DNA from: an uncultured Prevotellaceae bacterium
GTDB taxonomy: Bacteria; Bacteroidota; Bacteroidia; Bacteroidales; Bacteroidaceae
Direction: 5' to 3'
Length of the DNA: 64,000 nt
Assembly (NCBI GenBank): GCA_947305005.1
Contig: CAMZCM010000003.1
Location: 1 to 64,000 of the forward strand
In this document: positions 41,856 through 61,187 of the stretch, piece after piece
Numbering within the stretch: position 1 is the stretch's first letter
Layout of the letters: each line of letters begins with the position of its first letter
Translations under genes and position numbers: made by a program
The notes under the pieces: model-generated
Databases searched by the model: none
What the model saw: only the letters and a program-made list of their open reading frames with translations
Told to the model about the DNA's origin: nothing

Positions 41856-43085
41856 TTACATTTTTTGGTCGAGGTTTCGACCTTTCTCTTCATGCTCGAA
41901 GTTCGGGATGAACTCCTTGATAGCCTCAACCACCTGTGCCTTGGTGAAGTCCTCCTTCTGGAAGATGCCTTCCAACTTCTCGAAGAACCCGTTCACCTCA
42001 GCCATTTCATGGCGAGTGGTCTGGCAGACCACACCCAGGGCAGCGAAGCGCTGCATGTCGATTTTCTCTCCAGGAACGAAAAACTCTTCAAAAGACTTCT
42101 CCCCCGTCGTATCGCTTGTGAAATACCTTACTGGATATTTCACGGTTTCAGGTTTCAGAGTTTCAAGTTTCAGGTTGGAGGCCTTAACCTTAGCCTCATC
42201 ATCGCTAGAGCACGGATCTTTCTCCAGTCCATTGGCCGTCACGAACTTGTCGCAGATCGAAGAGAACGTCAGCATCTGGTCTTCGCCCAACTTCGGGAAG
42301 AACACTTCGCCCCCATTGCCCAGAATACAAGCCAGCATACATATCTGACCGCTCTCCTCGGGCGAAACAAAGTAACGCTTCACATCGCTTGGTGCAGCCA
42401 GCGGCTGCTTCTTCTGCAAGCGATGAATCCATCCGTCAGGCAGCGAACCGTTGCTGAAGGCCACGTTCGCAAAGCGAGCAGTTGTCACCTTAAAGTACTT
42501 GTTGTAAGCCATCACCAAGTCCTCCATGATGCGCTTGGATGCTCCCATAATATTCACAGGATTTGCAGCCTTATCCGTACTTACGCAGAAGAAATGCTTG
42601 GGAGGATAGACTGTCAGCAAGTCCATCAACCTCTTGGCCTTGATGTCGTTATTCTCGATCAGTGCCTGCACACTATACCTATCCTTCTCCGAGCGCACAT
42701 GCTTATGAGCAGAGAAATTTGCCACAATATCAAATCCCTCTTCCTCGCGGAAGATGCGCTCAAAGATAGGATCTGCAAAGTTCAACGTGTAGCAACGGAA
42801 CTCATCCGGAACGAACAAGCCCTGAGTAGAGCGCACATCACGCACCAGTTCTGCCAGTCCGTTCTCGTTGAGGTCAACGACCACTACGCTTTGGGGTTTG
42901 AACCGCAAGATGGCCTTGATGAAGCTGGAGCCAATGGAACCTGCCCCACCAATCACGCATACCTTCTTACCCTTGATTTCCTTGGAAAGCGTCTCTTTGT
43001 TCGCCTGGATGTCCGGCTCAAACATACTGACAGGGCGGAAAGTTACACTGTCAGCAATAAATTTATCTAAATTAAACATACTCAA
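41856..43085 (-). CDS. NDP-HexNAc 4,6-dehydratase, LegB/CapD-like
   Basis: A 409-aa protein of the polysaccharide synthesis dehydratase family (PF02719). It has 'VCVIGGAGSIGSSFIKAIL' as cofactor loop, 'ANFSAHKHVRSEKDR', 'VSTDKAANPVNIMGASKRIM' where Met replaces the usual Tyr of the Y-x3-K motif as in CapD/PglF/LegB, and 'RFANVAFSNGSLPDGWI'. It should make an NDP-4-keto-6-deoxy-HexNAc, the LegC substrate. An insert 'SNLKLETLKPETVKYP' near residue 310 is coded by a GTTTCA-type repeat. ATG at 43079 is an alternative start. Confidence 0.88.
   Translation of the reverse strand: MSMFNLDKFIADSVTFRPVSMFEPDIQANKETLSKEIKGKKVCVIGGAGSIGSSFIKAILRFKPQSVVVVDLNENGLAELVRDVRSTQGLFVPDEFRCYTLNFADPIFERIFREEEGFDIVANFSAHKHVRSEKDRYSVQALIENNDIKAKRLMDLLTVYPPKHFFCVSTDKAANPVNIMGASKRIMEDLVMAYNKYFKVTTARFANVAFSNGSLPDGWIHRLQKKQPLAAPSDVKRYFVSPEESGQICMLACILGNGGEVFFPKLGEDQMLTFSSICDKFVTANGLEKDPCSSDDEAKVKASNLKLETLKPETVKYPVRYFTSDTTGEKSFEEFFVPGEKIDMQRFAALGVVCQTTRHEMAEVNGFFEKLEGIFQKEDFTKAQVVEAIKEFIPNFEHEEKGRNLDQKM
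42144..42174. repeat. GTTTCA repeat inside the LegB-like gene
   Basis: Plus strand has four GTTTCA words at 7-8 base spacing. They are read in frame as 'LKLETLKPETV'. Similar 'gaaacctgaaac' strings are usually intergenic, so this looks like a repeat captured into a coding sequence. Confidence 0.6.
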
Positions 43086-57809: not shown

Positions 57810-57884
57810 GGTGCGTTAGTTCAGTCTGGTTAGAATACATGCCTGTCACGCATGGGGTCACGGGTTCGAGCCCCGTACGCACCG
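57810..57884 (+). tRNA. tRNA-Asp (anticodon GTC)
   Basis: A 75-nt cloverleaf: acceptor GGTGCGT/ACGCACC with G discriminator, D-stem GTTC/GAAT, anticodon stem CATGC/GCATG with loop CTGTCAC, T-arm ACGGG-TTCGAGC-CCCGT. CCA is not encoded. The 3' end of the gene is repeated downstream in a 115-bp tandem unit. Confidence 0.97.
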
Positions 57885-58110
57885 CAAGAGCCTAGGGCTC
57901 TTTTTTGTTTATATAGGCTTTCACCCGTGACCCCATGGGTCAGAGTTCTTTCAACAAGTGAAAGCGACCGAAGGTCGAGCGCGAGCCCCGTACGCACCGC
58001 AAGAGCCTAGGGCTCTTTTTTGTTTATATAGGCTTTCACCCGTGACCCCATGGGTCAGAGTTCTTTCGACAAGCGAAAGCGACCAAAGGTCGAGCGCGAG
58101 CCCCGTACGC
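57868..58110 (+). repeat. Tandem 115-bp repeat built from the tRNA-Asp 3' end
   Basis: Units 57868-57982 and 57983-58097 differ at 3 of 115 positions; a third partial unit GAGCCCCGTACGC (58098-58110) ends at the uvrB stop codon. Each unit holds the last 17 bases of the tRNA, the terminator hairpin, TGACCC-cat-GGGTCA, CTTTCR-N5-YGAAAG and CGACC-RAA-GGTCG. Two of the three differences are the compensating pair A-T to G-C in one stem; the third is in a loop. A 15-base piece (57923-57937) is the reverse complement of tRNA positions 57851-57865. Coding is not supported. Confidence 0.9.
57886..57906 (+). terminator. Terminator after tRNA-Asp
   Basis: AAGAGCC-tag-GGCTCTT followed by a T-run, directly after the tRNA. 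An identical copy is at 58001-58021 in the second repeat unit. Confidence 0.85.
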
Positions 58111-60147
58111 TCAATCATCTTCATCACCCAATTGGGCCATGAGGGAGAGCATTTGGTCACGAAGTTGAGCGGCAGTGATGAAGTCGAGGTCTTTGGCAGC
58201 TTTTTGCATCTGTCGGCGCAACAGATCAATGCGTTTACGTAGCTCATCGCGTGTCAGGTATTCCGCCTCCACCTCTGCCGCCATCGGCAACGAAGGTTCC
58301 GGCTCGATATATGCCCGTTTGTCACGTTCAGACATGTTCTCATGATTGGCAGCGATGAGGTCCGTCATGGTGCGATCCTTCATAATCTGTGTCGGCGTAA
58401 TCCCATGCTCCTCGTTGTAATGCAATTGTTTCTCCCGTCTGCGATTCGTTTCATCAATGGTCAGTTGCATGGACTCCGTGATTGTATCGCCATACATGAT
58501 GGCCTTGCCATGAATGTTACGGGCTGCACGGCCCACCGTCTGCGTCAAAGAACGATGGCTGCGCAGGAACCCCTCTTTATCCGCATCGAGGATGGCCACC
58601 AGCGAGACTTCTGGAAGATCCAAGCCCTCACGTAACAAGTTGACACCCACAAGCACATCAAACTTACCCGAGCGCAGGTCATCCATGATCTGCACCCGCT
58701 CCAAAGTATCCACATCACTATGGATGTAACGCGTCTGCACACCATGATTCACCAGGTATTCCGTCAGTTCCTCCGCCATACGCTTAGTGAGCGTCGTCAC
58801 CAGCACCCGTTCCTGCACCTCCACTCGCTGCTGAATCTCCTCCATGAGGTCATCCACCTGATTGGCTGTGGGGCGCACCTCGATGACTGGGTCCAACAAA
58901 CCGGTGGGTCGGATCACCTGCTCCACGATGATACCTTCACTCTGTGCCAGCTCATAATCCGCGGGGGTAGCGCTGACATAGATGACCTGATGCGTCAGGG
59001 CCTCAAACTCCTCGAATTTCAAAGGACGATTATCCATCGCTGCCGGTAAGCGGAAGCCATATTCAACGAGGTTCGTCTTGCGAGCCCGGTCACCGCCATA
59101 CATCGCTGATATCTGCGGCACGCTCACATGACTCTCATCGATAACCAACAGAAAATCCTCCGGGAAGAAATCCAAGAGGCAATAAGGGCGCGTACCTGCA
59201 GCACGTCCATCAAAATAGCGGCTATAATTCTCGATACCCGAGCAATGCCCCAACTCACGAATCATCTCCATATCATAGGTCACACGTTCGTAGAGTCGTT
59301 TGGCCTCCAACGGTTTACCTATCTCTTCGAAATACTTCACCCGGGCAGTGAGGTCATCCTCAATCTGATGAATGGCAATCTGTGTCTGTTCCTTCGTTGT
59401 CATGAACAGATTCGCCGGATAGATCATATAATCCTGAAACTCCCCGATACGAGCACCCGTCACTGTGTCCACCTCCTCAATGGCATCAATCTCATCATCC
59501 CAAAAGGTGACCCGTAGGAGGAAGTCAGAATAAGCCAAAAAGATATCCACGGTATCCCCTTTGACACGATACTCCCCTCGTCCGAGGCTGATATCATTGC
59601 GGGTATAGAGCGAATCGTTCAGGCGGCGCAGGAACACATTGCGATCCAGGATCTTACTGCGATGCAGTTCTATCACATTCTCATAGAAAGCTGCAGGATT
59701 ACCCATGCCATAGATACACGAGACAGAACTTACCACGATGACATCCTTTCGTCCTGACAACAACGCCGAAGTGGCTGCTAAACGCATCCTGTCGATCTCA
59801 TCGTTGATAGCCAAGTCCTTTTCGATGTAAGTATCGGTGGAAGGGATGTAAGCCTCAGGCTGGTAATAGTCATAATAACTGACATAATACTCCACCGCAT
59901 TCTGGGGAAAGAAAGCCTTCATCTCACCATACAGCTGAGCTGCTAATGTCTTGTTATGTGAGAGAATCAACGTAGGTTTTCCTACATTAGCAATCACATT
60001 GGCAACAGTAAATGTTTTTCCCGAACCTGTCACACCCAATAGCGTCTGTGCAGGCACCCCGCTAAGGATGCCTTGAGTGAGCTGATCAATCGCCTCTGGC
60101 TGATCGCCTGTCGGCTGATATTTGGAAGTGAGAATGAAGTCTGGCAC
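58111..60147 (-). CDS. uvrB: Excinuclease ABC subunit B
   Basis: A full-length UvrB of about 678 aa. 'TLLGVTGSGKTFTVANVIAN' is the Walker A, 'YYVSYYDYYQPEAYIPSTDT' the beta-hairpin region, 'LLVIDESHVSVPQ' the DEAD-like box, 'VDTLERVQIMDDLRSG' and 'QTVGRAARNIHGKAIMYGD' the later helicase motifs, and the C-terminal UVR domain starts at 'LRKRIDLLRRQMQKAAKDLD'. It verifies DNA damage with UvrA and recruits UvrC. The track start at 60183 lies in the promoter (-7 box 60173-60180), so I choose the GTG at 60147 before 'PDFILTSKYQPTGDQPEA'. Confidence 0.96.
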   Translation of the reverse strand: MPDFILTSKYQPTGDQPEAIDQLTQGILSGVPAQTLLGVTGSGKTFTVANVIANVGKPTLILSHNKTLAAQLYGEMKAFFPQNAVEYYVSYYDYYQPEAYIPSTDTYIEKDLAINDEIDRMRLAATSALLSGRKDVIVVSSVSCIYGMGNPAAFYENVIELHRSKILDRNVFLRRLNDSLYTRNDISLGRGEYRVKGDTVDIFLAYSDFLLRVTFWDDEIDAIEEVDTVTGARIGEFQDYMIYPANLFMTTKEQTQIAIHQIEDDLTARVKYFEEIGKPLEAKRLYERVTYDMEMIRELGHCSGIENYSRYFDGRAAGTRPYCLLDFFPEDFLLVIDESHVSVPQISAMYGGDRARKTNLVEYGFRLPAAMDNRPLKFEEFEALTHQVIYVSATPADYELAQSEGIIVEQVIRPTGLLDPVIEVRPTANQVDDLMEEIQQRVEVQERVLVTTLTKRMAEELTEYLVNHGVQTRYIHSDVDTLERVQIMDDLRSGKFDVLVGVNLLREGLDLPEVSLVAILDADKEGFLRSHRSLTQTVGRAARNIHGKAIMYGDTITESMQLTIDETNRRREKQLHYNEEHGITPTQIMKDRTMTDLIAANHENMSERDKRAYIEPEPSLPMAAEVEAEYLTRDELRKRIDLLRRQMQKAAKDLDFITAAQLRDQMLSLMAQLGDEDD

Positions 60148-60172
60148 GACAATAAAATACTTGGTTGGGGCA

Positions 60173-60180
60173 CAAAGGTA
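60173..60180 (-). promoter_or_regulatory. -7 element of uvrB
   Basis: Minus strand TACCTTTG matches TAnnTTTG about 25 bases before the chosen GTG start. A TTG lies 23 bases upstream, slightly wider than the usual spacing. No LexA-type operator was recognised. Confidence 0.6.
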
Positions 60181-60242
60181 CACAAATAGTCTGAATAAAA
60201 TGGCAATTGTGACACCTTTTTATATTAAAAAGTCTTTTCTCT

Positions 60243-60294: not shown

Positions 60295-61140
60295 ATGAAA
60301 AAATATAGTCTGCTTCTTATCTGCGTCCTCATCAGCTTCGTCAGTTGCGGTGAGTATAACGCTGTGATGAAACAGGGAGATCCCGAATATAAGTACGAGA
60401 CAGCCAAGGCCTGTTTCGCACGAGGGAAATACACGCAGGCAAGTGAGTTGCTGAACGGTGTAGTGCTGGCATATAAAGGAACCTCCTTCGGAGAGGAGAG
60501 CCTATACCTGATGGCGATGAGTCATTTCCTGCACAAAGATTACGACATCGCCGCCACCGCTTTCAAGAAATATTACCAGAGCTATCCCCGTGGTATCTAT
60601 GTAGAAGAAGCCCGTTATTACAGTGCCTTGTCGCTCTATAACGAGGTGCCCGATCCCCGTTTGGACCAGACCGCCACCAAACAAGCCATCACGGAGATGC
60701 AGACTTTTCTGGATTACTATCCCTACACCCGTCTGAAAGATCAGGCACAAGAGATGCTTCAACGTCTGCAGGACCATTTGGTGGAAAAAGAATACCGCTC
60801 CGCACAACTGTATTATGACTTAGGTACTTATATTGGCAACTCCACCAGCGGTGGTTCCAATTATGAAGCCTGCATCGTAACCTCTGAGAATGCGCTACGC
60901 GATTATCCCTATGCATTGCCGGAGCGTCGCGAACAGTTCCAGATGCTTATCCTACGTTCCCGTTATCACCTCGCCAAACAAAGCGTGGAGGAAAAACGAT
61001 TGGAACGTTTCCGTCAGACCATTGATGAATACTATGGCTTCGCTAATGACTTCCCCGAATCCAAATATCTGAAAGAAGCCCAAGGCTACTTCACGAAAAG
61101 CCAGAAAGCCCTGAAAGGACAACCGATGGAGGAGGATTAG
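60295..61140 (+). CDS. bamD: Outer membrane protein assembly factor BamD
   Basis: A 281-aa lipoprotein: signal 'MKKYSLLLICVLISFVSCGE' with lipobox Cys18, then TPR repeats typical of BamD ('LNGVVLAYKGTSFGEESLYL', 'AFKKYYQSYPRGIYVEEARY', 'FANDFPESKYLKEAQGYFTK'). It is part of the BAM complex at the inner leaflet of the outer membrane, folding beta-barrel proteins. First gene of a plus-strand run; the next gene is RNA polymerase omega, as is common in Bacteroidales. Confidence 0.93.
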   Translation: MKKYSLLLICVLISFVSCGEYNAVMKQGDPEYKYETAKACFARGKYTQASELLNGVVLAYKGTSFGEESLYLMAMSHFLHKDYDIAATAFKKYYQSYPRGIYVEEARYYSALSLYNEVPDPRLDQTATKQAITEMQTFLDYYPYTRLKDQAQEMLQRLQDHLVEKEYRSAQLYYDLGTYIGNSTSGGSNYEACIVTSENALRDYPYALPERREQFQMLILRSRYHLAKQSVEEKRLERFRQTIDEYYGFANDFPESKYLKEAQGYFTKSQKALKGQPMEED

Positions 61141-61148
61141 GGTTGAGA

Positions 61149-61180
61149 GATTAAGGATTAAGGATTAAGGATTAAAGATT
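61149..61180. repeat. GATTAAG tandem heptamer
   Basis: About four and a half copies of GATTAAG in the 47-base spacer between bamD and the omega gene. Tract length could vary between strains. Confidence 0.7.
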
Positions 61181-61187
61181 ATTATAT

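Follow-up and report, generated by a model that had tools for sequence, protein, structure and literature searches.

What kind of element begins inside a tRNA gene, repeats in tandem and stops at the stop codon of the convergent gene? The interval between tRNA-Asp and uvrB in the window (the whole stretch of 64,000 nucleotides analysed here, from an uncultured Prevotellaceae bacterium) raises this question. A sequence-only reading had described a tandem 115-bp repeat at this site, had suggested a selected RNA structure, and had pointed out that duplicated tRNA 3' ends also mark integration sites. Its interpretation as a whole is supported in part; it had missed the kinship with the tRNA-linked repeats (TLRs) of E. 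coli and the dispersed nature of the palindromic core. The element is real, structured and recurring; its kind was known already, but the phylum is new and the anatomy is clearer.

Anatomy of the array behind tRNA-Asp

The array at 57867-58110 was identified by TRF with a period of 115, 2.1 copies, 97% matches and a score of 467. The repeat begins within tRNA-Asp, its copies occupy 57867-57981 and 57982-58096, and a remainder at 58097-58110 adjoins the stop codon of the convergent uvrB at the far end. The two full units described earlier are borne out, and the remainder, then given as 13 bases, is 14. Each unit reads, in order, tRNA 3' end, intrinsic terminator, inverted tRNA stretch, hairpin A and a two-hairpin core (Table 1). 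The earlier assignment to each unit of a tRNA 3' end, a terminator and further hairpins agrees with the terminator-like hairpins that begin at 57886 and 58001 and with hairpins A, B and C. Besides the two terminators of the + strand, weaker terminator-like hairpins are found on the - strand of the array. The product of the ORF at 58111-60183 is presumably UvrB, named from its translated sequence.

Table 1. Features of the array and its flanking genes in the window
Feature	Position	Strand	Basis or remark
tRNA-Asp (GTC), host gene of the array	57810..57885	+	ARAGORN; Rfam RF00005, 64.9 bits
Terminator T1 (AAGAGCC-TA-GGGCTCTT TTTT), between tRNA and unit 1	57886..57906	+	Hairpin/sequence reading
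Inverted tRNA copy, T-arm to anticodon arm, 30 nt, 80% complementary	57916..57945	+	15-nt exact core at 57923-57937
Hairpin A (TGACCC-CAT-GGGTCA)	57928..57942	+	3' strand resembles tRNA GGGTCA(C)GGGTT
Core 1, type I palindromic repeat GTTCTTTC..GAAAGCGACC..GGTCGAGCG	57945..57981	+	Hairpin B 57948-57964, hairpin C 57965-57977; dispersed relatives
Direct repeat of the final 18 nt of tRNA-Asp (CGAGCCCCGTACGCACCG)	57982..57999	+	Repeat analysis and relatives
Terminator T2, between unit 1 and unit 2	58001..58021	+	Terminator-like hairpin
Inverted tRNA copy of unit 2	58031..58060	+	
Hairpin A of unit 2	58043..58057	+	
Core 2; hairpin B (58063-58079) with the compensatory A-T to G-C replacement, hairpin C (58080-58092) with the loop difference	58060..58096	+	
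Second tRNA 3'-end copy, truncated, 14 nt (CGAGCCCCGTACGC), with no terminator after it	58097..58110	+	
uvrB, convergent, stop codon abuts the array	58111..60183	-	ORF translation

Exactly three positions distinguish the two copies, namely 57953 A/58068 G, 57959 T/58074 C and 57970 G/58085 A. The first two changes jointly convert one A-T pair of hairpin B to G-C, and the third lies in the loop of hairpin C, precisely as the sequence-only reading had it. The 15-mer ACCCGTGACCCCATG (57923-57937 and 58038-58052) is the exact reverse complement of tRNA bases 57851-57865, which upholds a further claim of that reading; the inverted match in the window scores 18, a value equalled by none of 200 shuffled units. 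The nearest pairing partner of this inverted segment is the unit's own hairpin A. Because the other strand of hairpin A is a near copy of the tRNA segment, covariation does not separate pairing with the tRNA from pairing within hairpin A.

Little of the outer closing stem survives in the window (TATATA versus TACGCA, with a duplex of -8.8 kcal/mol versus an average of about -14), and the folding of the window units is only moderately better than that of shuffled sequences (z -1.96). Among the 28 complete tRNA genes found in the genome, tRNA-Asp is the only one whose 3' end is duplicated downstream. The whole unit was also considered as a direct, degenerate copy of the tRNA, and this was rejected; one unit in a relative (G007b) exceeded the shuffles and the window units did not. 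Elsewhere in the window, the heptamer AGGATTA is repeated seven times at 61133-61181, between a BamD-like ORF and the next ORF, and a short TTTCAGG heptamer array of 5.3 copies occupies 42138-42176.

Related units, dispersed cores and the host tRNA

The search pattern for relatives, two tRNA-Asp ends about 100 nt apart, matched 23 of 139 genomes of the genus, and true tandem tRNA-Asp genes were told apart from window-type units by reading the sequences. Units like those of the window occur behind tRNA-Asp in about 15 species (G000, which is the window's own genome, G006, G007, G014, G022, G028, G062, G065, G071, G083, G111, G131, G139, G142 and G157), with a partial unit in G149. The copy number varies between species, from 1 to 4, and these numbers are lower bounds, because many of the carriers' contigs end inside the array. 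The comparison of relatives proposed by the sequence-only reading has in this way been carried out, and their stems covary as described below. A covariance model built from five other species, with no window sequence included, recovered both window units (45.1 and 35.8 bits). In a scan of the genomes of 84,980 species, 17 stretches were found, all in uncultured Bacteroidales MAGs (Prevotellaceae, Bacteroidaceae, 'Candidatus Physcousia' and 'Candidatus Equimonas'), the named sources being mostly gut, rumen or faeces. In a further 392 genomes from the order, a thin sample, a stricter form of the layout matched nothing but two real tandem tRNA genes.

Three loci in other Bacteroidales MAGs (L235, L237 and L246, the last with two identical units) have the same tRNA-Asp-linked layout with unrelated cores. 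The shared layout consists of the tRNA, a terminator, an inverted copy of the variable region and T-arm, a palindromic core, a direct repeat of the final ~18 nt of the tRNA, and a terminator. The array directly follows tRNA-Asp in the window and in those relatives whose contig includes the tRNA. The neighbours differ: in relatives the array stands behind tRNA-Asp beside other genes, and also at the ends of tRNA clusters. Within arrays, the divergence amounts to 2.7% for the core, 2.4% for the 3'-end copy, 7.4% for the terminator and 7.1% for the arm, a large share of the counts coming from G142 and G139. The low divergence of the core and the tRNA-end copy is compatible with selection or homogenisation in these parts.

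Two mutually unrelated cores occupy the same slot of the unit, type I as in the window (GTTCTT-stem-loop-stem-AAGCG-hairpin-CGAGCG) and type II (GTTATTC-hairpin-TCATCAAGCTnCGCAAGTC). Both types are also dispersed in the intergenic DNA of the genus, away from tRNAs and in either orientation; the 20-mer AAGCGNCCAAAGGNCGAGCG is present in 35 of the 139 genomes and absent throughout the reversed control. In related tRNA-linked units, hairpin B takes the form CTTTC/GAAAG, CTTGC/GCAAG or CTTGG/CCAAG, and hairpin C that of CGACC/GGTCG or CGGC/GCCG. A stem test on 37 distinct dispersed elements, using anchors that do not presuppose pairing, found that 70 of 74 stem positions of the first hairpin pair; over 2000 shuffles the count averaged 36 and never exceeded 50. 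The hairpins change in step in both dispersed and tRNA-linked units, and the compensatory change in the window therefore belongs to a general pattern; the earlier proposal that the stems are retained through compensatory changes holds for both kinds of unit.

The window's own genome carries the type I core away from tRNAs at G000:C1:241864-241884 and G000:C3:184328-184346, and many more such copies, some of them in adjacent inverted or tandem pairs, are seen in the congeners G002, G128, G135 and G142. The dispersed type II cores (L181, L182 and L185-L193, in G111, G007, G095, G087 and G089) often lie amid short repeats such as AACGTTAAACGTT. Derivation of the type II core from a degenerate inverted tRNA D-arm was rejected, since 164 of 500 shuffles were equally good.

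The cores resemble REP/BIME elements in being short palindromes of two hairpins, dispersed between genes, with stems that covary and sometimes in tandem or inverted pairs; unlike them, they are fixed in one slot behind tRNA-Asp, and they are not the palindromes that flank the RAYTs of the genus. RAYT-type Y1 transposases (L120, L121 and L123, in G093, G128 and G162) are flanked by palindromes of their own, TAGCCAGCC..GGCTGGT and ATGCGTGCCTTTAGGTACGCGAC, which form a REP system apart from the tRNA-linked cores. In G093 and G162 the flanking palindromes are other than the core, and in G128 one core lies ~300 bp off, beside the RAYT's own palindromes. A PF01797 match is absent from the window's genome, though the core repeat is present there. 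Mobilisation of the core by RAYTs was rejected as unsupported, the readable RAYT genes of the genus being flanked by different palindromes.

The inverted arm is a general feature of the family and follows the host's own tRNA. Summed over 21 units, with 8 variants of the tRNA, the score for complementarity between each unit body and its own tRNA is 300; when the tRNAs were swapped among the units, the mean fell to 262 and the highest value was 291, and none of 5000 swaps did as well. Because shared descent inflates this statistic, it indicates tracking and does not by itself indicate an ongoing selective force. Tracking is clearest in L235 and L246, where units with unrelated cores each contain a 19-nt exact reverse complement of their own, differing tRNA; segments like GTGACCTC follow the tRNA change GAGGTCAC in L236 and L242. 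For most species of the genus, exact complementarity to the own tRNA extends over just 4-11 nt, and one unit (L237) is without such a complement. The closing stem was rejected as the main constraint, own-species duplexes (-14.3 kcal/mol) gaining slightly over swapped ones (-12.2 kcal/mol).

Comparison with the tRNA-linked repeats of E. coli

The TLRs of E. coli comprise 22 units at ten loci, one to five per locus, the final 18-19 bp of every unit being the same as in the tRNA or rRNA upstream (PMC8144298). They include RttR at tyrT-tyrV, and lysV (Egan and Landy 1978; Rudd 1999, as described in PMC8144298), and since 1978 no function has been known for them save a proposed CsrA-related role of the rrn copies (PMC8144298). 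At rrnB, the TLR (rrB) is flanked by the terminators T1 and T2 and transcribed when polymerase reads through; the 3' end of its RNA was mapped 3 nt past the copy of the 5S end, for which the authors suggested an RNase E cut, and transcription and processing have been demonstrated for both RttR and RrB (PMC8144298).

We re-read tyrV and lysV in the present analysis and took rrnB from PMC8144298; detecting rrnB required a shorter end than the 18-nt probe that we used for E. coli. At tyrV there are 3.1 units of 178 bp, each finishing with the tRNA 3' end, and in the predicted fold of the RNA a 10-bp closing stem pairs the inverted copy with the tRNA end. At lysV the order is terminator, exact 13-nt inverted T-arm, palindromes and exact 18-nt tRNA end; the 13-nt inverted match by itself is reached in 4 of 200 shuffles. 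The trailers of proM, leuV and glnX were checked as further candidates and are not TLRs, and a match at glnV is a neighbouring tRNA.

The array in the window shares with these TLRs, its nearest known counterparts, units that directly follow a tRNA, in tandem or singly, a 3' end of 18-19 nt identical to that of the host tRNA (CGAGCCCCGTACGCACCG at 57982-57999, with 14 nt in the second copy), an inverted copy of the T-arm or 3' end, and GC-rich palindromic hairpins; at lysV the terminator is likewise placed. The copy numbers (2.1 in the window, 1-4 in the relatives) fall within the range of one to five per locus, and the position directly after tRNA-Asp corresponds to the location of TLRs in tRNA or rRNA operons. 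The inverted host T-arm, seen in the window as well as in tyrV and lysV, lies outside the published TLR definition. The window differs in phylum, tRNA and core sequences, in unit length (115 versus 156-178 nt) and in that the terminator recurs inside every tandem unit. The resemblance of CGACC-AAA-GGTCG-AGCGC in the window to CGACCC-GAA-GGGCG-AAGCGC in E. coli is not conclusive, 8 of 400 shuffles being as good.

The window was not matched by the Rfam model of RtT RNA (RF00391) at the gathering score or at E<=10, and the Rfam scan at these two settings returned the tRNA plus meaningless matches only. Since the array has every TLR feature that can be tested in sequence and is unmatched by the RtT model, it is a member of the kind and not of the RtT family. 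Judged from its sequence, the array is a TLR of a new lineage, and this type of repeat, known from E. coli since 1978, exists in a second bacterial phylum. A literature search for tRNA-linked repeats outside enterics returned very little, and one for Prevotella tRNA-Asp repeats returned nothing relevant. The sRNA sponge 3'ETS-leuZ is not known to have a tRNA-end copy or tandem units; it resembles the RNA proposed below in coming from the 3' trailer of a tRNA transcript (PMC8144298 for the sponge). The rrA/rrB/rrF sRNAs of E. coli, of the TLR family, likewise lie between T1 and T2 and end in a copy of the 3' end of the upstream RNA (PMC8144298), whereas they are linked to 5S rRNA, are present in single copy and bind Hfq and CsrA. 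Bacteroides has no obvious Hfq or ProQ (PMC7366714), so these E. coli partner proteins cannot be assumed here.

Trailer RNA, DNA repeat and other possible explanations

We give about even chances to the explanation that the TLR array lies in the 3' trailer of tRNA-Asp and that its read-through product is processed at the tRNA-like 3' end. Each unit would be a piece of the 3' half of the tRNA, once inverted and once direct, enclosing a palindromic (REP-like) core, with a terminator on either side where the array is complete. RNA polymerase would occasionally pass T1, and such read-through may be rare because T1 looks like a good terminator. The read-through unit would fold into hairpins A, B and C, and in most relatives the tRNA-end copy would also take part in a closing stem. 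That copy would then be cut and trimmed by the machinery of tRNA 3'-end maturation, releasing as a by-product a folded RNA of roughly 95 nt, which might or might not be put to use and whose amount would track tRNA-Asp transcription. The 18-nt ends, being identical, could recombine or allow slippage, and arrays would thereby gain and lose copies. In favour of this explanation are the homologous units of many congeners, the recovery of both window units by a model built from other species, the compensatory changes in the stems, the arm that follows the own tRNA, the low divergence of core and 3'-end copy, and the E. coli parallels; against it count the loss of most of the closing stem in the window, the modest folding advantage of the window units over shuffles, and the want of an obvious Hfq or ProQ in Bacteroides.

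The main competing account places the element at the DNA level. A REP-like palindrome would have been captured at the T-loop region of a duplicated tRNA end and would spread or amplify as DNA, its hairpins mattering as DNA or not at all and any RNA being incidental; we regard this account as possible but less likely than the trailer RNA. The sharing of one slot by two unrelated cores, each dispersed in both orientations, the different cores within the same frame in other Bacteroidales and in E. coli, and the variable copy number all point to it, and the exchange of cores between species and their occurrence away from tRNAs are as compatible with a DNA repeat as with an RNA gene. It is weakened by the failure to find a mobilising enzyme in the genus, whose readable Y1 transposases keep to different palindromes, by the window's genome having the repeat with no PF01797 match, and by the core and 3' end being the least variable parts inside arrays. 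We consider it unlikely that the unit is an antisense regulator of its own tRNA, in which the inverted segment would pair with the variable region and T-arm of tRNA-Asp or its precursor and block folding or maturation when transcription outruns processing. The exact complements to the own tRNA (window, 15 nt; two other Bacteroidales, 19 nt; lysV, 13 nt) and the matched tRNA change in L236 and L242 are what such a regulator would predict; the short complements in most species of the genus and the exception in L237, the nearer partner in hairpin A and the burial of T-arms in mature tRNA argue against it.

That the stacked hairpins serve merely as a bidirectional insulator, ending transcription of tRNA-Asp and of the convergent uvrB, would agree with the terminator-like hairpins on both strands and with the uvrB stop codon abutting the array. 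Relatives, however, retain the array behind tRNA-Asp where the neighbouring genes differ and where a tRNA cluster ends, and the tRNA-end copy and inverted T-arm would be superfluous for a simple terminator, so we think this quite improbable. A tRNA 3' end in direct repeat usually marks the site of an integrative element, and crossover commonly takes place in the T-loop, where the arms meet here; the array could on these grounds be read as an integration scar, that is, tandem att sites left by a tRNA-targeting element. The units, however, are conserved across many species as structured elements, and the repeat itself includes terminators. Four PF00589 integrase genes are present in the assembly and none is on the 199-kb contig of the window (C3); no match to the array was found in the phage records searched, nor any viral contig with the unit in IMG/VR. 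With no integrase on the contig, a scar is very unlikely, and the integration site raised by the sequence-only reading finds no support here.

More broadly, a single general process might lie behind the TLRs of both E. coli and Bacteroidales: an element or mutation mechanism, directed by the T-arm, that repeatedly encloses a palindromic core between inverted and direct copies of the tRNA 3' half; we offer this as a doubtful conjecture. If true, the process would define a class of mobile or self-generating elements that spans phyla and has so far gone unnamed. The long-standing question of what TLRs do can now be tested by comparing loci and by deleting an array from a carrier that can be cultured. 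Independent TLRs of another phylum, alike in layout and differing in tRNA sequences and cores, make visible which parts are essential and which exchangeable, and by this comparison the essential parts are the tRNA-end copy, the inverted T-arm, the hairpins and the flanking terminators.
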